From Oxynema aestuarii AP17 (GTDB lineage Bacteria > Cyanobacteriota > Cyanobacteriia > Cyanobacteriales > Laspinemataceae), in assembly GCF_012295525.1 (NCBI RefSeq), contig NZ_CP051167.1, positions 2,046,001 through 2,110,000 on the forward strand: a DNA stretch of 64,000 bases, written 5' to 3'. Below are positions 7,086-55,022 of the stretch, one piece after another. The translations under genes were made by a program, and so were the position numbers. The notes under the pieces are model-generated. The model was not told the DNA's origin. It saw only the letters and a program-made list of their open reading frames with translations, and ran no database searches. Positions within the stretch are counted from its first letter, which is position 1. Each line of letters opens with the position of its first letter.

Positions 7086-7832
7086 ATGACTATGTCTGTT
7101 CTCCAACAGCGCGATCGCGCCTCCGATAAAGAATCTCCTGAAACCGAAGTTAAAGATGTTATAGTTCCTCCGTGCGATCGCTACAGTGACGAACCGCCCT
7201 TGGAAACTTACTTACACTTGCAGCAAATGATGCTGCTAATTAAATGTCTCGAATGGTTGTGGCAAGACCGCGATGACTTTTTTGCCACGGGGAATCAAAC
7301 CATTTATTATTCCGCCAATCAACGCAAATCGGAAGACTTTCGCGGTCCGGATTTCTTCGTCGTTTTAAATACCCGACGCCAACCGCGCAAAAGTTGGACG
7401 GTTTGGGAAGAAGACGGCAAATATCCTAATTTAATCGTCGAACTGCTTTCGGCGAGTACCGCTCAAGTAGACCGGGAATTGAAAAAACAAATTTATCAAG
7501 ATATTTTTCGCACTCCCGATTATTTTTGGTTTGACCCAGATTCTCTGGAGTTCGCCGGATTTCATTTAAGCGATGGCTCTTATCACCCTTTGGAGGCCAA
7601 CCCTCGCGGTCATTTGTGGAGCGAACAATTACAATTATTTTTAGGTATTGACAATCGCCAGTTGCGCTTTTTCACTCCCGAGGGGGAATTAGTCCCGACG
7701 CCGGAAGAAGCGGCGAAATTAGCTCAACAAGAAGTTAACCGGGAACGCCAAGAAAGAGAGCTGGCTCAACAAGAAATCGATCGCCTCAGTCAAAAGTTAA
7801 GAGAATTAGGAATAGATCCGAATAGATTATAA
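7086..7832 (+). CDS. Uma2 family protein, tandem copy 1
   Basis: A 248-residue protein of the Uma2 (DUF820) family, which has a PD-(D/E)XK nuclease-like fold and is greatly expanded in cyanobacteria with no settled function. The core motifs are the segment reading [12 protein letters not shown], then [18 protein letters not shown] with the acidic ELLS, and [18 protein letters not shown]. The C-terminus (about 205-245) is a charged coiled coil with the 14-residue motif QEVNRERQERELAQ, ending LRELGIDPNRL. The first 22 residues differ from copies 2 and 3. The remainder is almost identical to them at DNA level. It starts a three-gene array with 15-base gaps. Confidence 0.85.
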   Translation: MTMSVLQQRDRASDKESPETEVKDVIVPPCDRYSDEPPLETYLHLQQMMLLIKCLEWLWQDRDDFFATGNQTIYYSANQRKSEDFRGPDFFVVLNTRRQPRKSWTVWEEDGKYPNLIVELLSASTAQVDRELKKQIYQDIFRTPDYFWFDPDSLEFAGFHLSDGSYHPLEANPRGHLWSEQLQLFLGIDNRQLRFFTPEGELVPTPEEAAKLAQQEVNRERQERELAQQEIDRLSQKLRELGIDPNRL

Positions 7833-7847
7833 ACCCGAGGAAGAACC

Positions 7848-8603
7848 ATGCCTGTTACCAAAACATTGGAAAACCAGGGGAAAGATGTTATAGTTCCTCC
7901 GTGCGATCGCTACAGTGACGAACCGCCCTTGGAAACTTACTTACACTTGCAGCAAATGATGCTGCTAATTAAATGTCTCGAATGGTTGTGGCAAGACCGC
8001 GATGACTTTTTTGCCACGGGGAATCAAACCATTTATTATTCCGCCAATCAACGCAAATCGGAAGACTTTCGCGGTCCGGATTTCTTCGTTGTTTTAAATA
8101 CCCAACGCCAACCGCGCAAAAGTTGGACGGTTTGGGAAGAAGACGGCAAATATCCTAATTTAATCGTCGAACTGCTTTCGGCGAGTACCGCTCAAGTAGA
8201 CCGGGAATTGAAAAAACAAATTTATCAAGATATTTTTCGCACTCCCGATTATTTTTGGTTTGACCCAGATTCTCTGGAGTTCGCCGGATTTCATTTAAGC
8301 GATGGCTCTTATCAATCTTTGGAGGCCAACCCTCGCGGTCATTTGTGGAGCGAACAATTACAATTATTTTTAGGTATTGACAATCGCCAGTTGCGCTTTT
8401 TCACTCCCGAGGGGGAATTAGTCCCGACGCCGGAAGAAGCGGCGAAATTAGCTCAACAAGAAGTTAACCGGGAACGCCAAGAAAGAGAGCTGGCTCAACA
8501 AGAAGTTAACCGGGAACGCCAAGAAAGAGAGCTGGCTCAACAAGAAATCAATCGCCTCAGTCAAAAGTTAAGAGAATTAGGAATAGATCCGAATAGATTA
8601 TAA
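7848..8603 (+). CDS. Uma2 family protein, tandem copy 2
   Basis: A 251-residue paralogue nearly identical to copy 1 from residue 11 onward. It starts [13 protein letters not shown], with GAGGAAGAACC just upstream as ribosome binding site. It carries one extra 14-residue (two-heptad, 42-bp) unit in the C-terminal coiled coil compared with copy 1. It differs at an Arg-to-Gln site (NTQRQP) and reads YQSLEA where copies 1 and 3 read YHPLEA. The 15-base spacing and conserved leader imply cotranscription with copies 1 and 3. The biochemical function is unknown. Confidence 0.85.
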   Translation: MPVTKTLENQGKDVIVPPCDRYSDEPPLETYLHLQQMMLLIKCLEWLWQDRDDFFATGNQTIYYSANQRKSEDFRGPDFFVVLNTQRQPRKSWTVWEEDGKYPNLIVELLSASTAQVDRELKKQIYQDIFRTPDYFWFDPDSLEFAGFHLSDGSYQSLEANPRGHLWSEQLQLFLGIDNRQLRFFTPEGELVPTPEEAAKLAQQEVNRERQERELAQQEVNRERQERELAQQEINRLSQKLRELGIDPNRL

Positions 8604-8618
8604 ACCCGAGGAAGAACC

Positions 8619-9290
8619 ATGCCTGTTACCAAAACATTGGAAAACCAGGGGAAAGATGTTATAGTTCCTCCGTGCGATCGCTACAGTGACGAACCGCCCT
8701 TGGAAACTTACTTACACTTGCAGCAAATGATGCTGCTAATTAAATGTCTCGAATGGTTGTGGCAAGACCGCGATGACTTTTTTGCCACGGGGAATCAAAC
8801 CATTTATTATTCCGCCAATCAACGCAAATCGGAAGACTTTCGCGGTCCGGATTTCTTCGTCGTTTTAAATACCCAACGCCAACCGCGCAAAAGTTGGACG
8901 GTTTGGGAAGAAGACGGCAAATATCCTAATTTAATCGTCGAACTGCTTTCGGCGAGTACCGCTCAAGTAGACCGGGAATTGAAAAAACAAATTTATCAAG
9001 ATATTTTTCGCACTCCCGATTATTTTTGGTTTGACCCAGATTCTCTGGAGTTCGCCGGATTTCATTTAAGCGATGGCTCTTATCACCCTTTGGAGGCCAA
9101 CCCTCGCGGTCATTTGTGGAGCGAACAATTACAATTATTTTTAGGTATTGACAATCGCCAGTTGCGCTTTTTCACTCCCGAGGGGGAATTAGTCCCGACG
9201 CCGGAAGAAGCGGCGAAGTCCGGGCAAGAAAAAATCGATCGCCTCAGTGAAAAGTTGCGGGAGTTAGGTGTGGATCCCGACAGTATTTAA
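8619..9290 (+). CDS. Uma2 family protein, tandem copy 3
   Basis: A 223-residue paralogue with the same leader and core as copy 2 but a shorter coiled coil. After EEAAK it diverges to [23 protein letters not shown] and lacks the 14-residue repeats. It combines the NTQRQP of copy 2 with the YHPLEA of copy 1, a mosaic that suggests gene conversion. Its 3' end overlaps the convergent coaBC gene by 27 bases. Confidence 0.85.
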
Positions 9291-15260: not shown

Positions 15261-16826
15261 ATGGCGCGTCTGGCACTGCTGAGTACATCTGATAAAACCG
15301 GGTTAGTAGAATTCGCCCGTCACCTCGTTGAGGAGTTCGAGTTCGACCTCATCAGCAGTGGTGGGACGGCAAAAGTCTTGAAAGAAGCGGGATTACCCGT
15401 GACCAAAGTTTCCGATTACACCGGATCGCCGGAAATTTTGGGCGGTCGCGTCAAAACCTTGCACCCGCGCATTCACGGCGGTATTTTAGCCCGTCGCGAT
15501 TTGGCCGAAGATCGGGCGGATTTGGACAATAACGACATTCGCCCCATCGATCTGGTCGTGGTTAATTTATATCCGTTCGAGCAAACGATCGCCAAACCAG
15601 GAACGACCCTGGCGGAGGCGATCGAAAATATCGATATCGGCGGACCGACCTTATTGCGCGCCTCGGCGAAAAATTACGCTCATTTAACCGTATTGTCCGA
15701 TCCGGCGCAATACGAGGCGTATCTCGGCGAATTGCGCGCCAAAAACGGCGAAGTTTCCCTAGAATTCCGGCAAGCGTGCGCCCGCGAGGCATTTTGGCAT
15801 ACGGCGAGTTACGATCGCGCGATCGCCACGTACCTCAGCGAACAACCCCTCGAAAACGTTCCCGAAAGCTTGCCGCAACAGCAACATTTCGGCATTGCCG
15901 GATCGTTGATGCAGTCCCTCCGCTACGGCGAAAACCCCCATCAATCCGCCGGATGGTATCAAATCGGCGCGCAACCGACGGGATGGGCCGCCGCCGAGAA
16001 ATTGCAGGGGAAAGAACTCAGTTATAACAACTTAGTCGATTTAGAAGCTGCCCGCCGCATTATTTGCGAGTTTGTCGGCCCGGAGAATTCCCCCGCCGCC
16101 GCCGTGCTCAAACATACCAATCCCTGTGGGGTGGCGATGGGTGAGACCTTGGTAGAAGCCTATCAGAAAGCCTTTGCTGCCGATTCCGTATCCGCTTTTG
16201 GCGGAATTGTCGCCTTAAACCGGGCGATCGACGCAGCAACGGCCACGGAATTGACGAAAACCTTCCTCGAATGCGTCGTCGCCCCCGCTTGCGAACCGGA
16301 AGCGGCAGAAATTCTCCAGAAAAAGTCCAAAGTCCGGATTTTAACCCTTTCCGATTTAACTACCGGACCGAAACAGACCGTCAAGGCGATCGCGGGCGGA
16401 TTTTTAGTCCAGGACTCGGACGATGCTGTAGAAAATCCCGACAACTGGGAAGTGGTGACCGAGAAAAAACCCAGTGACGACCAACTGGCGGAACTTCTGT
16501 TCGCTTGGAAGGTCGTCAAGCACGTTAAATCTAACGCAATTTTAGTCTCGCGCGATCGCGCCACCTTGGGCGTCGGCGCCGGACAAATGAACCGGGTTGG
16601 GGCGGTCAAAATTGCCCTGGAAGAAGCCGGAGACCGCGCCCAAGGCGCCGTTTTGGCCTCCGATGGCTTTTTCCCCTTCGACGACTCCGTAAGAACGGCG
16701 GCGGCGGCAGGCATCACCGCGATCGTCCAACCGGGGGGCAGTATGCGCGATCGAGATTCGATCGCCGCCGCCAACGAACTCGGCATCGTCATGGTCTTGA
16801 CGGGAATGCGGCATTTCTTACATTAA
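15261..16826 (+). CDS. purH: Bifunctional AICAR transformylase / IMP cyclohydrolase
   Basis: This enzyme catalyses the last two steps of de novo purine synthesis, formylating AICAR with 10-formyl-tetrahydrofolate and closing the ring to IMP. The N-terminal MGS-like cyclohydrolase domain (residues 1-195) has ALLSTSDKTGLVEFARHL, SSGGTAKVL and the motif GGRVKTLHPRIHGGIL. The AICARFT domain follows with LRYGENPHQSAGWY, VLKHTNPCGVA (catalytic Lys-His) and DSVSAFGGIVALN. The length of 521 is normal. The start at 15261 is preceded by GAAAGGATTACGGAGTC. The gene stands alone, and a 12-bp triplication lies across its stop codon. Confidence 0.96.
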   Translation: MARLALLSTSDKTGLVEFARHLVEEFEFDLISSGGTAKVLKEAGLPVTKVSDYTGSPEILGGRVKTLHPRIHGGILARRDLAEDRADLDNNDIRPIDLVVVNLYPFEQTIAKPGTTLAEAIENIDIGGPTLLRASAKNYAHLTVLSDPAQYEAYLGELRAKNGEVSLEFRQACAREAFWHTASYDRAIATYLSEQPLENVPESLPQQQHFGIAGSLMQSLRYGENPHQSAGWYQIGAQPTGWAAAEKLQGKELSYNNLVDLEAARRIICEFVGPENSPAAAVLKHTNPCGVAMGETLVEAYQKAFAADSVSAFGGIVALNRAIDAATATELTKTFLECVVAPACEPEAAEILQKKSKVRILTLSDLTTGPKQTVKAIAGGFLVQDSDDAVENPDNWEVVTEKKPSDDQLAELLFAWKVVKHVKSNAILVSRDRATLGVGAGQMNRVGAVKIALEEAGDRAQGAVLASDGFFPFDDSVRTAAAAGITAIVQPGGSMRDRDSIAAANELGIVMVLTGMRHFLH

Positions 16827-16856
16827 TGTAGGCATTAATATAGGCATTAATGTAAG
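16821..16856. repeat. 12-bp tandem repeat x3 across the purH stop codon
   Basis: Three units of the type CATTAATRTARG run from the last histidine codon and TAA stop of purH into the 3' untranslated region. It parallels the 13-bp triplication across the BON gene stop at 3733-3771. Confidence 0.9.
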
Positions 16857-17023: not shown

Positions 17024-18085
17024 ATGCGCGATCTCGCCCCTTTACTGCCCAGCAACTGGCAAGAATGGATTGCCAACCATAAATCTCGCAAGATTGCCGA
17101 CGGTGAAATCGTCAACGCCATGATCGAACAAGGCATTGACATTAGAATAGCGACAGCAGCCGTTAAGGAAATTATTCCCACCGAGAAGAACAATGGCGAT
17201 CGCGCTACCGATGGCAAAATTGCACAACTCGAAGCCAAAATTGCCCAACAAGCCGAACAACTCAAAAGCTTAAAACTACAACTCGATATTTATTACGATT
17301 TAGAACAACTCGAACCCAATTTCGGCAAAGTCGAACGGCGATCGGGGTTATCCCGTCAAGAATTCCTCGAAAACTATTACGCCAAAAATCGCCCCGTTAT
17401 CTTGACCGATATCGTTCCCCAGTGGAAAGCTCATTCACGGTGGACCCCCGACTATCTCAAAAAAAAATACGGTCATCTCGACGTTTCCGTTCAGTACGAT
17501 CGCCACTCCAACCCGCTTTATGAAATCGAAAAAGAAAAACATCAAAAAACGATGAAATTAGGCGAATATGCCGATCTCGTCGTCAATGGCGGTAAAACAA
17601 ATCAATATTATATGGTGCCCTTTAACGCCAATATTCTCAAAGATGAATTTCAAGGCTTATTTGAAGATGTCCAACTCTCCGACAACTATTTCGATCGCAG
17701 CTTAGGACGAGAACGTTTCTCATTTTGGTTCGGTCCGGAAGGAACGATTACCCCGCTTCATTTTGACCTGATGAATAGTTTTCTCTGTCAGGTTTACGGA
17801 CGCAAACGGATGCGACTAATTTCGCCCAACCAAAAACATCTCATGTACAACTACATGAGTTTCCACACCCCAATCGATCTCGACCGTCCGGATTTTACAA
17901 AATACCCTTTATTTAAAAACGTTAACGTCATCGACGTCGTGATTCACCCCGGTGAAGCGATGTTTGTTCCGGCGGGGTGGTGGCATCACGTCACTGCTTT
18001 AGATATTACCATTTCCCTCTCGGTGATGAATTTTGTTTTTCCGAACGGTTACGACCACTTACTCAGTAAAAATTACGAGATTTAG
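17024..18085 (+). CDS. JmjC/cupin-like Fe(II)/2-oxoglutarate oxygenase
   Basis: A 353-residue cytoplasmic protein. The N-terminal 55 residues form a small helical domain (DGEIVNAMIEQGIDIRIATA). Residues 62-98 are a coiled coil, and residues 100-345 form a cupin_8/JmjC domain starting FLENYYAKNRPVILTDIV. The metal ligands are H246 and D248 in TPLHFDLMN and H321 in VPAGWWHHV, so the enzyme is probably active as a hydroxylase of protein or small-molecule substrates. The start is supported by AGGAAG upstream. The next gene on the same strand begins 20 bases later and encodes a dioxygenase-fold protein, which suggests an operon. The substrate is unknown. Confidence 0.85.
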   Translation: MRDLAPLLPSNWQEWIANHKSRKIADGEIVNAMIEQGIDIRIATAAVKEIIPTEKNNGDRATDGKIAQLEAKIAQQAEQLKSLKLQLDIYYDLEQLEPNFGKVERRSGLSRQEFLENYYAKNRPVILTDIVPQWKAHSRWTPDYLKKKYGHLDVSVQYDRHSNPLYEIEKEKHQKTMKLGEYADLVVNGGKTNQYYMVPFNANILKDEFQGLFEDVQLSDNYFDRSLGRERFSFWFGPEGTITPLHFDLMNSFLCQVYGRKRMRLISPNQKHLMYNYMSFHTPIDLDRPDFTKYPLFKNVNVIDVVIHPGEAMFVPAGWWHHVTALDITISLSVMNFVFPNGYDHLLSKNYEI

Positions 18086-18105
18086 AAGGAAAGCGATCGC
18101 GGACT

Positions 18106-18981
18106 ATGCAAGCGGATTTAGACTCTATCGATCTAACTATTTTACTGCGTGGCGGTCATCAATGCCAGCTTTCTGTCTCGCCAGATAGCAAACTGCTGCG
18201 TTCTCTGTTCGAGGCGTTAGCCAACGTCAAATCTGAAGATTATCGGGGAGAATTATTCAAAATCCCTTTAGAAGAAGGACGATCGACCTTGTATTTTCCT
18301 CCGCAATCTTTAGTGGCGATCGCCACTCAGCCAACAATTGACCTGCATTCCTTATTTCCAGAAACAGAAGCACCACAAAAAAGTTTATCGTTTCCGCCAA
18401 GAACCCTGAAAACTGAATATATTCAAATTGAAAACTTTCTCGATCGCCAATCTCATCAAACCCTGACCAATTACGTTATCAACCATCAAAATGATTTCCG
18501 GCGATCGCCCCTTTACCGTCCTTACCCGCATTCCTTTGCAAGCTTGCGAACCCTCTTAGTAGACCGTTTAAAGGCGATCGCCCCCGATATCCTCAGTAAA
18601 TTGGGAATCCCTCATTTTCCGATCGCCGAAATTGAAGCCGAATTGACTCCGGCGATCGCCGTCCCACAACTGCAAATAAATGGCGATAATGACGCCCCGG
18701 AAACGCAAAGGCGATCGGTCAGTTTTCTCTATTTCTTCTATCCCGAACCGCGAGGATTCATGGGGGGACAGATTCGCCTTTACGACACGCAAATCGAAAA
18801 TAATGTTTGCATTCCTGCCAAATCTTATCAAACTATCGAGACGAGGAATAATTCGGCGCTATTTTTCTTGAGTCCGACCCCTTATGAAATGCTAGAATTG
18901 AAACCGCGATCGGCCAACATGGCAGACCACTGCTTTATCTTCAGAGGGTGGCTGTGTCGGGGGGAGACCAAGCGGGGATAG
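18106..18981 (+). CDS. 2OG-Fe(II) dioxygenase-fold protein lacking metal ligands
   Basis: A 291-residue paralogue of the gene at 19064. Both share an N-terminal domain (about residues 8-80; GGHQCQLSVS ... EEGRSTLYFPPQSLVAIAT) and a C-terminal prolyl-4-hydroxylase-like domain (about 104-285). Aligned with its neighbour over this domain, the iron ligand His231 becomes Asn192, the Asp is kept (Asp194), the distal His301 becomes Tyr260, and the 2OG-binding Arg317 becomes Cys276. It is therefore very probably inactive as an oxygenase. The fold and reading frame are intact and codon use is normal, so a structural or regulatory partner of the other two oxygenases is plausible. Confidence 0.75.
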   Translation: MQADLDSIDLTILLRGGHQCQLSVSPDSKLLRSLFEALANVKSEDYRGELFKIPLEEGRSTLYFPPQSLVAIATQPTIDLHSLFPETEAPQKSLSFPPRTLKTEYIQIENFLDRQSHQTLTNYVINHQNDFRRSPLYRPYPHSFASLRTLLVDRLKAIAPDILSKLGIPHFPIAEIEAELTPAIAVPQLQINGDNDAPETQRRSVSFLYFFYPEPRGFMGGQIRLYDTQIENNVCIPAKSYQTIETRNNSALFFLSPTPYEMLELKPRSANMADHCFIFRGWLCRGETKRG

Positions 18982-19063
18982 AAAGCAGGGAGAGAACGTC
19001 GAGAGTTCGCTTCTCGCATGAAGATTCACTCGAACGAGAAACTACAAACCATCACTAAGAATT

Positions 19064-20044
19064 ATGAGCGCAACTACGCAAAATATCGAGTCTCAAGTTC
19101 ACGTTATGATGTTGATTGAAGGGGGACATCAATGCGAATTGTCTCTCAGTTTCGACTCGCCATTATTACTGGAATTACTCGAAGCATTGCAAAACCGTTC
19201 TCAGGGAGAAACGGAGAATAATCGCCTCTTTCAAATTCCCGTAGATGAGGGGCGATCGATGTTGTATTTTCCCAGTCATTCGATCGTGGCGATCGCCACC
19301 GATCCGCCGTTGACGTTCGGCGAAACAGGCGAACTCAAAGAAATGACTCAAATGGTTCAATCCCCGCCCGAACCGACCCCCACGCCGCAAGCGGAGACCC
19401 CACAAATTCAGGCGCAAAGTACCGCCGATCCCAACTCCAGCAATGGTCCAGTTTTAATCGAATCTCGTTACTTCCAAATCGAAAACTTTTTAACCCCAAA
19501 AGAACATAATCGCTTATTAAATTACGTCCTGAACAAAAAATCCGAGTTCGTCCAAAGTACGGTATCGAGTGGCGATCCAGAATATCGCAAATCCCTACTG
19601 TTATTCTATTTTGAAGATTTCGCGGAACTGATTCAAGCCCGCCTCAAACAAAATTTCTCGACGATTTGCAAGGAGTTGGGAATTGGCGAGTTTCCCATCA
19701 GTCAAATTGAAACCCAAATCACCGCCCATAATGACGGGCATTATTATAAAGCCCACAATGACAACGGCGACGAAAAAACTGCAACTCGGGCGATCAGTTA
19801 CGTTTATTATTTCAACCGCGAACCAAAACAGTTCTCGGGGGGAGAATTAAAAATTTACGATAGTTGGAAGCACAACGAATCCTATTACACGATGGCGGCG
19901 GAATCGTCGAAAGTCGTGCAACCGTACAATAACAGTATTGTCTTTTTTAGTAGTAGTTGCTGTCACGAAGTCCAACCCGTTCGCTGTTCTTCTAATGATT
20001 TTGCAGACAGTCGCTTTACCCTCAACGGTTGGATTCGTTATTGA
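19064..20044 (+). CDS. 2OG-Fe(II) oxygenase, prolyl-4-hydroxylase-like
   Basis: A 326-residue protein. The N-terminal domain (about 13-82; GGHQCELSLS ... DEGRSMLYFPSHSIVAIAT) is shared with the preceding gene. A proline-rich linker (98-130) follows, and residues 132-326 form a 2OG-Fe(II) oxygenase domain. The metal ligands are H231 and D233 in HYYKAHNDN and H301 in CCHEVQPV, and R317 in SRFTLNGW binds 2-oxoglutarate. The strand motif GGELKIYD is typical of P4H-like enzymes. It probably hydroxylates a peptide or protein side chain, with the substrate unknown. It ends the cluster that starts with the JmjC gene, and a terminator follows at 20085. Confidence 0.85.
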   Translation: MSATTQNIESQVHVMMLIEGGHQCELSLSFDSPLLLELLEALQNRSQGETENNRLFQIPVDEGRSMLYFPSHSIVAIATDPPLTFGETGELKEMTQMVQSPPEPTPTPQAETPQIQAQSTADPNSSNGPVLIESRYFQIENFLTPKEHNRLLNYVLNKKSEFVQSTVSSGDPEYRKSLLLFYFEDFAELIQARLKQNFSTICKELGIGEFPISQIETQITAHNDGHYYKAHNDNGDEKTATRAISYVYYFNREPKQFSGGELKIYDSWKHNESYYTMAAESSKVVQPYNNSIVFFSSSCCHEVQPVRCSSNDFADSRFTLNGWIRY

Positions 20045-49004: not shown

Positions 49005-52000
49005 ATGCCGACGACCACCAAAACCGCCCCCGCCAACAACAACGACCTCCTCAACGAACTCCTCACCACCCTCAACGCCCTCAAACAAGGCGACTTCAAC
49101 ACCCGAATGCCCCTACACCATACGGGCTTAGAAGGCAAAGTCGCCGACACCCTCAACGAAATCCTCGAACAAAACCAGCAAATGGTCGGCGAATTCCAAC
49201 GCATCGGCGAAGTCGTCGGCAAAAAAGGAAAAATCGGCGATCGGGCCACCCTCAACGGCAACAACGGCGCCTGGAAAACCTGCATCGAATCCGTCAACAC
49301 CCTAATCGGCGACCTCGTACAGCCGATGACCGAAACCACCCGCGTCATCCAAGCCGTCGCCAACGGCGACCTCTCCCACAAAATCCCCCTCGAACTCGAC
49401 GATCGCCCCCTCAAAGGCGAATTTCTCAAAACCGCCAAACTCGTTAACAGCATGGTCGATCAACTCGGATCCTTCTCCAGCGAAGTCACCCGGGTCGCCC
49501 GCGAAGTCGGAACCGAAGGCAAACTCGGCGGTCAAGCCGACGTCCAAGGAGTTCGAGGCATCTGGAAAGAACTCACCACCAACGTCAACCTGATGGCGGA
49601 CAACCTCACCGCCCAAGTTCGCAACATCGCCGACGTCACCACCGCCGTCGCCAACGGCGACTTATCCAAAAAAGTCACCGTAGACGTCAAAGGCGAAATC
49701 CTCGAACTCAAAAACACCGTCAACACCATGGTCGATCGCCTCAGTTCCTTCGCCAGCGAAGTCACCCGGGTCGCCCGGGAAGTCGGAACCGAAGGCAAAC
49801 TCGGCGGTCAAGCCCACGTCCAAGGGGTCGCCGGAACCTGGAAAGACCTCACCGACAACGTCAACTCCATGGCGGAGAACCTCACCGACCAAGTTCGCAA
49901 CATCGCCGCCGTCACCACCGCCGTCGCCAACGGCGACTTATCCAAAAAAGTCACCGTAGACGTCAAAGGCGAAATCCTCGAACTCAAAAACACCATTAAC
50001 ACCATGGTCGATCGCCTCGGATCCTTCGCCAGCGAAGTCACCCGCGTCGCCTGCGAAGTCGGAACCGAAGGCAAACTCGGCGGTCAGGCCCACGTCCAGG
50101 GGGTCGCCGGAACCTGGAAAGACCTCACCGACAACGTCAACTCCATGGCGGACAATCTCACCGACCAAGTTCGCAACATCGCCGACGTCACCACCGCCGT
50201 CGCCAACGGCAATTTATCCAAAAAAGTCACCGTAGACGTCAAAGGCGAAATCCTCGAACTCAAAAACACCATCAACACCATGGTCGATCGCCTCGGATCC
50301 TTCGCCAGCGAGGTCACCCGCGTCGCCCGCGAAGTCGGAACCGAAGGCAAACTCGGCGGTCAAGCCGACGTTCCCGGCGTCGCCGGAACCTGGAAAGACC
50401 TCACCGACAACGTCAACTCCATGGCGGGCAATTTAACCGCCCAAGTTCGCAACATCGCCGACGTCACCACCGCCGTCGCCAACGGCGATTTATCTAAAAA
50501 AGTCACCGTAGACGTCAAAGGCGAAATCCTCGAACTCAAAAACACCGTCAACACCATGGTCGATCAACTCAGTTCCTTCGCCTCCGAAGTCACCCGGGTG
50601 GCGCGAGATGTGGGCACCGAAGGCAAACTTGGCGGTCAAGCGGACGTCAAAGGAGTCGCCGGAACCTGGAAAGACCTCACCGACAACGTTAACTTGATGG
50701 CGGGCAATCTCACCGCCCAAGTTCGCAACATCGCCGAAGTCACCACCGCCGTCGCCAACGGCGATTTATCCAAAAAAGTCACCGTAGACGTCAAAGGCGA
50801 AATCCTCGAACTCAAAAACACCGTCAACACCATGGTCGATCAACTCAGTTCCTTCGCCTCCGAAGTCACCCGGGTGGCGCGAGAAGTCGGAACCGAGGGC
50901 AAACTCGGCGGTCAAGCGGACGTCAAAGGGGTCGCCGGAACCTGGAAAGACCTCACCGACAACGTTAACTTGATGGCGAACAATTTAACCGCCCAAGTTC
51001 GCAACATCGCCGAAGTCACCACGGCGGTCGCCAACGGCGATTTATCTAAAAAAATTACCGTCGATGTACGCGGCGAGATTTGGGAGTTGAAAAATACCAT
51101 TAATACGATGGTGGATCGCCTCAGTTCCTTCGCCTCGGAAGTCACCCGGGTGGCGAGAGAGGTGGGAACCGAGGGCAAACTCGGCGGTCAGGCGCAAGTG
51201 AAAGGGGTCGCCGGAACCTGGAAAGACCTCACCGACAACGTTAACTTGATGGCGAACAATTTAACGGCCCAAGTTCGCAACATTGCCGAAGTGACCACGG
51301 CGGTCGCCAACGGCGAGTTATCGAAGAAAATCACCGTCGATGTCAAAGGTGAGATGCTGGAGTTGAAAAATACGGTCAACACGATGGTGGACCGTCTCAG
51401 TTCCTTCGCCTCCGAAGTCACCCGGGTGGCGCGGGAAGTGGGAACCGAGGGTAAGTTAGGCGGTCAGGCCCACGTCGAAGGGGTGGCGGGAACCTGGAAA
51501 GATCTCACCGATAATGTCAACTCGATGGCGAGTAATTTAACGGCCCAAGTTCGCGGAATCGCCCGAGTAATTACGGCGGTAGCGAATGGGGACCTCAAGA
51601 GTAAGATGGCGGTGGAGGCGAAGGGAGAAATTGCCGCCCTGGCGCAAACGATCGATACGACGGTGGAAACTCTGGCGACTTTTGCCGAACAGGTGACCAC
51701 GGTAGCGCGAGAAGTGGGGATCGAGGGTAAGTTAGGCGGTCAGGCGCGGGTTCCGGGGGCGTCGGGAACGTGGCGAGATCTGACGGATAATGTCAACCAG
51801 TTGGCGGCGAATTTGACCACTCAGGTTCGGGCGATCGCCGAAGTGGCGAAGGCGGTGACGAAGGGGGATCTGACGCGATCGATCGCGGTCCAAGCCCAAG
51901 GAGAAGTGGCGGCGCTGAAGGATAATATCAATCAGATGATCGCCAATTTGCGCCAGACGACGCAGAAAAATAACGAGCAAGATTGGCTGAAAACGAACTT

Positions 52001-55000
52001 AGCGAAGTTCAGCCGGATTTTACAAGGGCAGCGCGATTTACAGGCGGTGTCTAAGTTGATTCTGTCGGAACTGGCGCCGTTAGTTTCGGGGCACCACGGG
52101 GCGTTTTTCTTGATGGAAAATGTCAATGCGACGCCGGGAAATGCGATCGCCGAACCGTTCCTGAAGTTGGTCAGTACCTACGCCTATCGTCATCGCAAAC
52201 ATCTCTCGAATACGTTCCATTTAGGGGAAGGTTTGGTCGGACAGTGCGCCCTGGAAAAGGAAACAATTTTATTGACCGAGGTTCCGTCGGATTACATTAA
52301 AATTAGTTCGGCTTTGGGCGAGGCGTCTCCCCTCAATATTGTAGTGATTCCGGTGTTGTTTGAGGGACAAGTGACGGCGGTGTTGGAGTTGGCGTCGTTC
52401 CAACGCTTCAGCGACATTCACCTCAAGTTTTTAGACCAACTCACGGAAAGTATCGGGGTCGTTCTCAATACGATCGGCGCCTCGATGCGGACGGAACAGT
52501 TGCTGAAACAGTCGCAGTTGCTGACGGAAGAACAGCAGAAACAGCAGAAGGAGTTAACTCAAACGAATCAGCGTTTGGAACAACAGGCGCAATCGTTGAA
52601 AGCATCGGAAGAGTTGTTGAAAACGCAGCAGGAAGAGTTACAGCGTACGAACGAACAACTGGCAGAAAAAGCGCGGTTGCTGTCGGCGCAAAATGCAGAA
52701 GTGGAGCGCAAGAATCAGGAAATCGAACGGGCGCGGTTGGCGTTGGAAGAGAAGGCGGCGCAGTTGGCGCAAACGTCGAAGTACAAGTCGGAATTTTTGG
52801 CGAATATGTCCCACGAGTTGCGGACGCCGCTTAATAGTTTGCTGATTTTGGCGAAGATGTTGGCGGACAATGGGGATAAGAATTTGAGCGATCGCCAGGT
52901 GATGTATGCGAAGACGATCCATTCGGCGGGGATGGATTTGTTGACGTTAATTAATGAGATTTTGGACTTGGCAAAAATCGAGTCGGGTAAGATGCGAATC
53001 GAGGTGCAAGAAATGCCGTTGAAGGAGTTGCACGACTATCTCGATCGCACGTTCCACCAAGTGGCGTTTGAGAAAAAACTCGATTTTGAAATTACTTGTG
53101 AGGAGGGGTTGCCGCGATCGGTTTATACGGACAATCAACGGTTGCAGCAAATTCTCAAAAATTTACTCTCGAATGCGTTTAAGTTTACGGAACAAGGAAA
53201 AGTCACATTAAATATCCGTCGGGTCACGTCGGGTTGGAAGCCAAATCACCCGTTTCTCGATCGCGCGGATCGCGCGATCGCCTTTGCGGTCACGGATACC
53301 GGGATCGGCATCCCGGAAGACAAGCAAGACGTGATTTTTGAGGCGTTCCAGCAAGTCGATGGTACCACCAGCCGCAAGTACGGCGGGACGGGGTTGGGCT
53401 TGTCGATTACCCGCGAACTCGCCGGGTTACTCGGCGGCGATTTATCGGTCACCAGTACCCCGAATATCGGTAGCACGTTTACTTTATATTTACCGGAACG
53501 GTATATGGGTTCGGTGCAGAAGCCGAAGGAAGGACCGCCGCAACCCCAACAACCCCCGAAGCCTGCGGCGGTCGAGACGGAACGGCCCCGGGAAACGGTG
53601 GCGAGTCCGCCGTCGGAGTCGTTAATTTCGACAATCTCTCACATTACGCCGCCCCCGTCGCCGATCGCCGACGACCGGGATGCGATCCGGACGGGCGATC
53701 GCACGTTGTTGATCGTCGAGGATGATGTGAATTTTGCCAGCATCCTTTTAGATATGGGTCGCCAACGGGGGTTTAAATGTCTGGTGGCGTTGCAAGGGGA
53801 TACGGGTTTGTTTTTAGCGAAGCAGTTCAAACCGGATGCAATTCTGCTCGACATTCGCCTCCCGGTGATGGATGGTTTGACGGTTCTCAGTCGGTTGAAG
53901 GACGATCCGAATACACGGTATATTCCGGTGCAGATTCTTTCGGTGGAGGAGGAACAGCAACGGGGATTGCAACTCGGGGCGTTATTTTATTTACTCAAAC
54001 CCATTTCGCCGGAGGAATTGGCCCAGGCGTTCGACCGGATTGCGGCGATTTTACCTCCGGTACAGACGCCGAAGGAAGGCGAATCGAAACGGTTGTTAGT
54101 GGTGGACCGCGATGTGACCCAGCGCAACAGTTTTATACAAGCGCTCCAGGAACGCGGCGTGCAGGCGATCGCCGCGAATACGGTTCCAGAAGCGTTGGAC
54201 TGTTTGCGCGGCAATCGCGTCGACGGGGTGGTGTTGGATTTGGCGTTGGCGAATGGGTTGGAGTTACTCAAAGCGATTCGTCACGAGCTGAATTTGTGGG
54301 AATTGCCGATTATTGTCTACACCGGACAGGAGTTAACGCCACCGGAAGAAGCCGCACTCAAGCGGATGGCGGATACGGTGATTCGCAAGGACGATCGCTC
54401 GTTGGAGGATTTGGAGGAACAGATGGAGGTGTTCCGTCCGAGTCCATCCCCGAATGGCGATCGTCAGCTTCCCGCAACGCCTCTCGTAGCGGAGGCGCCG
54501 CCGCGTCTTCCCCTAGAGGAACTTGCACAAGCATCGCCCCCGCCGATGCCGCCAGTGCCGCAGGTGGCAGGCGATCGCACTCCGGTAGCACCCGCCGTCC
54601 GGGAGGAAGTGAAGCGCGAGGATCCCGCCGCACCCTCCACCGACGTGTTAGTGGGTCAAAAGGTGTTGATTGTCGATGACGACGTTCGCAATGTATTTGC
54701 GCTGACGAGCATGTTAGAGCAGTATCGGATGGAGGTGGTGTACGCGGAAAATGGCCGCGACGCGATCGAGTTACTCCAGTCCACCCCGGACATCAAAATC
54801 GTGCTGATGGATATTATGATGCCGGAAATGGACGGCTATCAAACAATGGAAGCGATTCGCAAAATTCCGGAATTTCAATTCCTACCGACGATCGCCCTCA
54901 CGGCAAAAGCGATGAAGGGCGATCGGGAAAAATGCATCGCGGCGGGGGCGTCGGACTACATCGCCAAACCCGTAGACACCGAGGAACTGCTCGCCCTCTT

Positions 55001-55022
55001 GCGCATGTGGTTGGCGAAATAA
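49005..55022 (+). CDS. Giant soluble hybrid histidine kinase with HAMP array, GAF and three REC domains
   Basis: A 2005-residue signalling protein without membrane segments. Residues about 10-985 are a long HAMP array in which a 92-residue unit ([19 protein letters not shown], then [18 protein letters not shown], then [12 protein letters not shown]) occurs about nine times. A GAF-like domain follows (about 1000-1155), then a Q/E-rich coiled coil (1160-1260). Next is HisKA with the phosphorylated H1270 in [10 protein letters not shown], and an HATPase_c domain ([20 protein letters not shown]). Three receiver domains have predicted phospho-acceptors D1616, D1745 and D1936, and the second is degenerate. 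The layout resembles fungal group III (Nik1/Os-1) osmosensing kinases and their bacterial relatives. The signal is unknown. Confidence 0.93.
49480..51800. repeat. 276-bp tandem repeat encoding the HAMP array
   Basis: The motif for EGKLGGQ recurs every 276 bases, near 49510, 49786, 50062, 50338, 50614, 50890, 51166, 51442 and 51718. The first six to seven units are almost identical in DNA and the last ones are more diverged. This indicates expansion from one end and recent homogenisation. Confidence 0.93.

Follow-up and report, generated by a model that had tools for sequence, protein, structure and literature searches.

Within a stretch of 64,000 nucleotides from the cyanobacterium Oxynema aestuarii AP17 (contig NZ_CP051167.1, positions 2,046,001 to 2,110,000 of the forward strand; this whole stretch is called the window below, and positions are counted from its first letter), three adjacent genes encode a JmjC oxygenase (protein 1), a 2-oxoglutarate (2OG) oxygenase homologue without both metal-binding histidines and the 2OG arginine (protein 2, the pseudo-oxygenase), and an intact paralogue of that homologue (protein 3). 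The loss is found in all 11 orthologues of the middle gene that were detected, each of which has a JmjC gene as its upstream neighbour. We tentatively propose, with a probability of about 0.42, that the middle gene encodes a non-catalytic subunit of PHD fold that serves the JmjC enzyme and possibly also the active paralogue, and that the small N-terminal domain common to proteins 2 and 3 (N-domain) is a docking module.

The three genes and the ligand loss in the middle protein

The three open reading frames (ORFs) named in the initial annotation were confirmed; they are co-directional on the forward strand and separated by intergenic gaps of 20 bp and then 82 bp. The first gene (17024..18085; 353 aa) encodes a cupin_8-type, JMJD5/FIH-like JmjC oxygenase, as judged from Pfam (Cupin_8 1.1e-47, JmjC 1.8e-8), from its nearest solved relatives by sequence in the PDB (JMJD5 1.1e-32, FIH 6.5e-21) and from its residues. 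Specifically, protein 1 carries H246, D248, K261 and H321, in agreement with the intact ligands claimed for it earlier, and H246, D248 and H321 are candidate cofactor residues according to the HxD...H pattern, while K261 is taken as the candidate 2OG lysine by analogy with JMJD5. Of the 31 proteins compared, protein 1 among them, 30 have the full set of these residues, the exception being JmjC1 of L082. Protein 1 appears to be a JmjC hydroxylase of the JMJD5/FIH group, with putative arginyl or asparaginyl protein hydroxylation, but it differs from these two enzymes in its N-terminal region and in the linkage of its gene to a PHD-like pair.

The third gene (19064..20044; 326 aa) encodes an intact protein with an N-domain and a PHD-like 2OG oxygenase barrel, assigned by Pfam (2OG-FeII_Oxy_3 at 2.3e-20, above the cut-off) and Foldseek, whereas the middle gene (18106..18981; 291 aa), assigned the same architecture from alignments and an AlphaFold2 model, reaches 2OG-FeII_Oxy_3 at 1.4e-4 only (23.2 bits, under the cut-off of 27). 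As had been proposed, the two proteins are paralogous over nearly their full length (35% identity, E 1e-50), and their alignment passes through the GGHQC and EGRS.LYFP motifs. It is not ungapped, as stated at first, and contains 37 gap columns out of 313, protein 2 being shorter in the linker and in the stretch ahead of the barrel. The substitutions read from it are nevertheless correct: N192 (codon at 18679..18681) stands in the column of the metal ligand H231 of protein 3, Y260 (18883..18885) in that of the metal ligand H301, and C276 (18931..18933) in that of R317. D194 (18685..18687) is the retained counterpart of D233, and protein 2 therefore lacks the residue set of an active 2OG oxygenase (HxD...H and Arg), since only the aspartate is present.

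These replacements recur in the orthologues. The first histidine is absent from 11/11 (N, S, A, P or F instead), as is the second (Tyr in 10, Ser in one), and all have Cys for the 2OG arginine while keeping the metal aspartate; in two orthologues (L034 and L090) gaps near the first ligand make the residue opposite the histidine uncertain, its absence being certain. Protein 3 and 52 intact relatives (53 proteins in all) show no variation at H231, D233, H301 and R317. More specifically, 53 columns are at least 96% conserved among these intact proteins, of which 16 persist in all 11 pseudo-oxygenases and 10 have been substituted or deleted in every one of them, the latter comprising both histidines and the arginine and likewise R175, S177, N223, Y228, C308, S316 and T319. 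The middle protein probably lacks catalytic activity, as far as its residues indicate.

Intact barrels are the rule elsewhere. Across 79 named loci, the four residues H, D, H and R are present in all complete barrel ORFs apart from eight pseudo-oxygenase orthologues (one further barrel ORF, in L133, is truncated by a contig end), and in 29 loci that were read from the 44 matching genomes (L005-L033), all barrels outside the window's family are intact. A search at the level of the order, covering 388 genomes (119 of which matched at 1e-30), gave 393-530 bits for the 11 pseudo-oxygenases and 287 for the next match, with a profile that was built from pseudo-oxygenases and thus favours them; the next 19 loci from outside the family all read Y-H-D-H-R. 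Among the loci examined, none from outside the family held a ligand-less copy, and a more distant, independently decayed copy may exist elsewhere.

The models agree with a shared fold. Mean pLDDT in AlphaFold2 was 85.0 for protein 3 (53 sequences) and 83.8 for protein 2 (44 sequences). Structural alignment matches the protein 3 barrel to those of PHD2 (Z 18.8, rmsd 3.0, 173 residues), Pseudomonas putida PPHD (4iw3; Z 18.2, rmsd 3.0, 172 residues) and Dictyostelium PhyA (Z 16.9, rmsd 3.4, 174 residues), and its top Foldseek match is PPHD with EF-Tu (4iw3, 2.0e-11). For protein 2, the N-terminal barrel of Tpa1 (Z 14.1, rmsd 3.1, 177 aligned), PPHD (4j25; Z 14.0, rmsd 3.4, 164) and PHD2 (Z about 14) are tied, given that matches within one Z unit are counted as such, and no one family is taken to be the closest. 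The models support retention of the barrel fold in protein 2, a retention that is not independent of intact relatives, which were also in the alignment behind its model. Protein 3, with its predicted fold, HxD...H pattern and arginine, qualifies as a PHD/P4H-like 2OG oxygenase with putative prolyl hydroxylation. Both paralogues share the barrel of PHD2, PPHD and PhyA, and protein 3 also their HxD...H...R set, but they differ from these enzymes in the additional N-domain and, in the case of protein 2, in the missing histidines and arginine.

The N-domain comprises about 85 residues and is predicted, from the model of protein 3, to fold as beta-beta-alpha-beta-beta-beta. It lies at 18127..18336 in the pseudo-oxygenase gene (residues ~8-77; profile A4, E 2.0e-31) and at 19064..19312 in the intact gene (8.2e-37), both values coming from a profile whose rows include the respective domain. 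The initial annotation did not recognise it, and indeed no convincing match was obtained: a scan of 10 N-domains gave only weak matches, each from a single member (best Pfam 0.019, NCBIfam 0.0055) and none above a curated cut-off, and nothing convincing came from PDB sequences. It can stand alone, as ORFs with an N-domain and no barrel occur in two genomes; that of G011 lies between purH and a DUF4079 gene, in the slot of the full oxygenase elsewhere, and G005 has another. The ORFs without barrel are located at L229:5518-5988, which is the one in the slot between purH and DUF4079, and at L228:5871-6224.

Distribution, gene order and evolution

Within the phylum, searches of 386 genomes matched protein 2 in 44 at 0.001 and protein 1 in 15 at 1e-40, and the N-domain profile matched 24. 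In searches of the 14 genomes of the window's family, protein 2 matched 14/14 and protein 1 matched 11/14. The 11 orthologues of the middle gene belong to four genera, all in this family of filamentous cyanobacteria. They come from the window's genome, from Oscillatoria sp. SIO1A7 (G397), from Oscillatoriaceae cyanobacterium M33_DOE_052 (G229) and from the eight genomes of one genus (g144, here the Laspinema group), which includes Laspinema palackyanum D2a, L. olomoucense D3b, Laspinema sp. D2d, Oscillatoria sp. HE19RPO 203, Oscillatoria bin S11.Bin022 and Phormidium pseudopriestleyi FRX01. In the three genomes of a further genus (g145, Planktothricoides), among them Planktothricoides sp. SR001 and the Oscillatoriales isolate S07.Bin090, the JmjC and pseudo-oxygenase genes are both absent and only a solo intact gene is present. 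The cluster genes are linked in four genera, so that the lack of linkage elsewhere named in the initial annotation as a refuting outcome did not occur, and the cluster is present in 11/14 genomes of the family; as a general cyanobacterial feature it is rejected, having been seen in this family only.

Gene order, read 5' to 3', is JmjC, pseudo, intact in the window; JmjC1, N-domain + JmjC2, pseudo, intact in the eight Laspinema-group genomes; intact, JmjC, pseudo, intact in M33_DOE_052; and intact, JmjC, pseudo in SIO1A7. A JmjC gene is directly upstream of the pseudo-oxygenase gene in 11/11, at up to about 230 bp when starts are taken from the longest ORFs (in L087 the ORFs overlap). The intact gene, on the other hand, is downstream in the window and the Laspinema group, upstream in SIO1A7 and on both sides in M33_DOE_052. 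The second JmjC protein (JmjC2) carries a fused N-domain in 8/8 genomes of the Laspinema group. The initial annotation had proposed an enzyme/pseudo-enzyme pair of the two paralogues working with the JmjC hydroxylase; the linkage of pair and hydroxylase stands, but the constant pair is the JmjC and pseudo-oxygenase genes, because of their adjacency in 11/11, their joint absence in three genomes and the fusion of N-domain and JmjC in eight. As an observation on these loci (L082-L089, e.g. L082:5678-6841), the N-domain of JmjC2 takes the place of the N-terminal region of JmjC1.

Outside the family, no JmjC neighbour of the intact gene was seen in the loci examined, and only eight of the 79 named loci bear a JmjC gene, all eight belonging to family members. 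Among 13 sampled non-family genomes that have a close JmjC homologue, 11 possess an unlinked N-domain as well, and both were found in 13 of the 386 genomes, two of these in the family (Fisher test on 13 with both, 11 and 2 with one, and 360 with neither, p 4.5e-16, a value that ignores relatedness and is not proof). Where both occur outside the family (11 genomes), they are located on separate contigs or at distances of hundreds of kilobases, and the stretches around the one hold no copy of the other. The neighbours of 12 unlinked JmjC genes include some that recur, none of which indicates a target.

The pseudo-oxygenases form one clade (support 100/99 in a tree of 56 rows), whose inner order is unsure, since a program warning pointed to long branches that join within it. 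The ratio of non-synonymous to synonymous changes (dN/dS) was computed with our own script after Nei-Gojobori for 28 pairs, which are not independent, among the eight Laspinema-group genomes. Its median is 0.18 for the pseudo-oxygenase gene (0.11-0.28), 0.19 for the intact gene (0.09-0.26) and 0.15 for both JmjC1 and N-domain + JmjC2. In this group, purifying selection acts on the pseudo-oxygenase gene as it does on the intact one. The view that the loss is local decay, raised at the outset as the finding that would speak against a specific role, is rejected: HxD...H is kept in 0/11 orthologues, all of which are ligand-less members of one clade, with a dN/dS of 0.18.

A gene for AICAR transformylase/IMP cyclohydrolase, purH (15261..16826, forward strand; Pfam AICARFT_IMPCHas 3.6e-121), precedes the cluster in the window; purH is directly upstream of the oxygenase gene in 32 of the 79 named loci and does not adjoin the cluster in M33_DOE_052 and SIO1A7. 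The family forms one group (98/97) in a 24-row purH tree, Planktothricoides nests with the window (82/86), and the genomes with the cassette fall on one side in 2% of 200 bootstrap trees. On the basis of this tree, joint loss of the JmjC and pseudo-oxygenase genes in Planktothricoides is favoured over a late single gain.

A putative non-catalytic partner and its alternatives

The sequence of events that we favour would begin with an ancestral intact N-domain oxygenase associated with a JmjC protein. Duplication of such an N-domain + PHD/PPHD-like 2OG oxygenase, a type scattered among cyanobacteria and often located after purH, would have given rise to the middle gene; one copy would have specialised for association and lost catalysis, both metal histidines and the 2OG arginine disappearing in a single episode, and would have been kept as the partner of the JmjC hydroxylase encoded upstream. 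The JmjC and the intact PHD-like enzymes would each hydroxylate protein side chains with O2, Fe(II) and 2OG, the N-domain being a common docking module that recruits the oxygenases to a single target or to each other. The pseudo-oxygenase, an N-domain with an emptied barrel, may give the window's JmjC protein, which has no N-domain, access to the docking site, or may stabilise or gate it, in the way that the fungal TlxI aids TlxJ (see below). Three genomic patterns tie it to the JmjC protein, namely the constant adjacency, the joint absence where the intact gene is retained, and the fusion of N-domain and JmjC; a physical association, a docking role and a protein substrate are what we infer beyond these patterns. 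A single protein target common to the enzymes of the cluster, also suggested in the initial annotation, is a guess.

Several observations weigh against the proposed partnership with the JmjC enzyme. Only four genera are involved, and the adjacency may go back to a single arrangement passed on by descent. None of the 13 sampled non-family genomes with a JmjC homologue holds a pseudo-oxygenase-like protein, so a JmjC protein does not generally need one, and the Laspinema group retains the pseudo-oxygenase gene although an N-domain is already fused to a JmjC protein there. The JmjC1 protein of L082 (L082:4580-5662) has Tyr for the third metal ligand, where the other ten JmjC1-type proteins have His, and the JmjC tree does not place the window's protein nearer to JmjC1 or to JmjC2. 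The position of Planktothricoides beside the window is weakly supported (82/86), and transfer of the cassette instead of joint loss is possible. Lastly, aspartyl hydroxylase (AspH) variants with one protein ligand are reported to remain active (PMC10947486), and ligand loss is consequently no proof of inactivity, though in protein 2 the 2OG arginine is gone as well.

The main rival, which we consider doubtful, makes the pseudo-oxygenase the obligate partner of its intact paralogue and the JmjC gene a mere neighbour or a further member. The two proteins are paralogues of the same architecture, an intact copy is in the cluster in 11/11, and enzyme/pseudoenzyme pairs often arise from homodimers. 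A direct structural precedent is the fungal heterodimer TlxI/TlxJ, in which TlxJ is made more active by TlxI, a subunit that lacks the 2OG arginine (PMC12141560). As in that pair, an arginine-less 2OG oxygenase homologue is clustered with active-looking oxygenases, the role being auxiliary in TlxI and putatively so in protein 2; the fungal pair, however, belongs to a small-molecule pathway, and protein 2 also lacks both metal histidines and has its constant neighbour from another branch, that of JmjC. Against this rival, the intact gene occurs without a pseudo-oxygenase copy in the non-family loci examined and in the three Planktothricoides genomes, and it is the intact gene, not the JmjC gene, that moves relative to the pseudo-oxygenase gene. 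Two other assemblies resemble the cluster in part. In OGFOD1, a double-stranded beta-helix domain without metal packs against an active one (PMC4396695), and one of the best structural matches of the pseudo-oxygenase model, tied with others, is the N-terminal barrel of Tpa1; the OGFOD1/Tpa1 barrels, however, lie in one chain with neither JmjC nor N-domain, while the cluster consists of separate ORFs with stop codons between them and is no member of that group. The collagen complex P3H1/CRTAP likewise joins a prolyl hydroxylase to a close relative on which its action depends, but it is a eukaryotic system of the endoplasmic reticulum, and CRTAP is not known to have any catalytic domain.

It is rather improbable that the middle protein retains chemistry, with its Asp, Tyr and Cys forming a new metal or ligand site in an altered enzyme or sensor instead of a scaffold. 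The one-ligand AspH variants speak for it, as does the identity of Asp and Cys in 11/11 and of Tyr in 10/11 orthologues, but conservation across four genera is thin evidence, and all 11 have in addition lost N223, Y228, S316 and T319, residues with little or no variation among the intact proteins. A functionless, decaying duplicate would fit the longer branches of the pseudo-oxygenases (~1.0-1.5 against ~0.3-0.55 changes per column in the intact paralogues); with the frame open in 11/11 genomes, a single clade over four genera, a dN/dS of ~0.18 in the Laspinema group and the fold retained in the model, this reading is disfavoured and hardly credible. An ankyrin-repeat protein with FIH-type L.....[DE][VI]N repeats as the substrate of the cluster is a weakened idea that we regard as very unlikely. 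L.....[DE][VI]N is a known FIH-type motif, of which three of the ankyrin proteins have 6, 7 and 4 copies, but it is also common in ankyrin repeats generally. FIH is reported to act on ankyrin repeats (PMC7864055). An ankyrin gene is present in 24 of the 79 named loci, adjoins the M33_DOE_052 cluster and is separated from the cassette by ~11-14 kb in four genomes of the Laspinema group, yet it is 1.9 Mb from the cluster in the window's genome, occurs in the Planktothricoides genomes without JmjC, and is found (E<=1e-90) in 39/386 genomes that include only 12 of the 24 with an N-domain.

Returning to the partnership of pseudo-oxygenase and JmjC hydroxylase, a wider version of it is unlikely but would have broader consequences: the cluster may be a bacterial counterpart in layout of the PHD and FIH pair that acts on HIF, with PHD-like and JmjC hydroxylases meeting on one target through an undescribed N-terminal docking domain and one PHD copy turned into a non-catalytic docking subunit of the JmjC enzyme. 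If true, such a layout would couple the levels of O2, iron and 2OG to protein modification in cyanobacteria, where 2OG signals nitrogen status. The cluster points to regulated protein hydroxylation in these bacteria and to a small unnamed domain common to PHD-like and JmjC proteins. Pseudoenzymes have been much studied among kinases and far less among 2OG oxygenases; here the loss is conserved in one clade that has living intact relatives, offering a simple test system for a dead oxygenase that would serve a live one. Among the literature matches listed, no description of this cluster or of its N-domain was found.

Further observations on the window and related loci

A phage or defence origin of the cluster received no specific support from PHROGs or PADLOC. 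In PHROGs, protein 1 matched families of unknown function and protein 3 two 2OG-oxygenase families and one named endonuclease V; in PADLOC, two generic 2OG models matched protein 3; protein 2 had no match in either. A promoter/terminator scan gave no clear excess over shuffled sequences (8 vs 5.0 +/- 1.9 and 7 vs 4.4 +/- 1.9). Three 12-base head-to-tail repeats (16821-16856) start at the extreme end of purH, ahead of the JmjC gene.

In the related loci, the oxygenase gene has as neighbours a DUF4079 gene and an ankyrin-repeat gene of convergent orientation (L034:5842-7233, L035:5801-7285), an arrangement that recurs in many of the 79. The same PHD-like barrel is found on a different N-terminal region at L168:1961-2920 and L169:6530-7588, with a winged-helix look that is an impression only. 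A second PHD-like gene, without N-domain and with intact ligands, directly follows the solo gene at L157:8370-8990; a second copy at L133:4004-4533 is the one cut by the contig end, and similar second ORFs exist in L246, L247, L250 and L254. Elsewhere in the window, positions 49005-55022 encode a hybrid histidine kinase of 2005 residues with a long HAMP array and three receiver domains, and 7086-9290 holds three nearly identical tandem paralogues, presumably of the Uma2-type endonuclease fold, to judge from their appearance.

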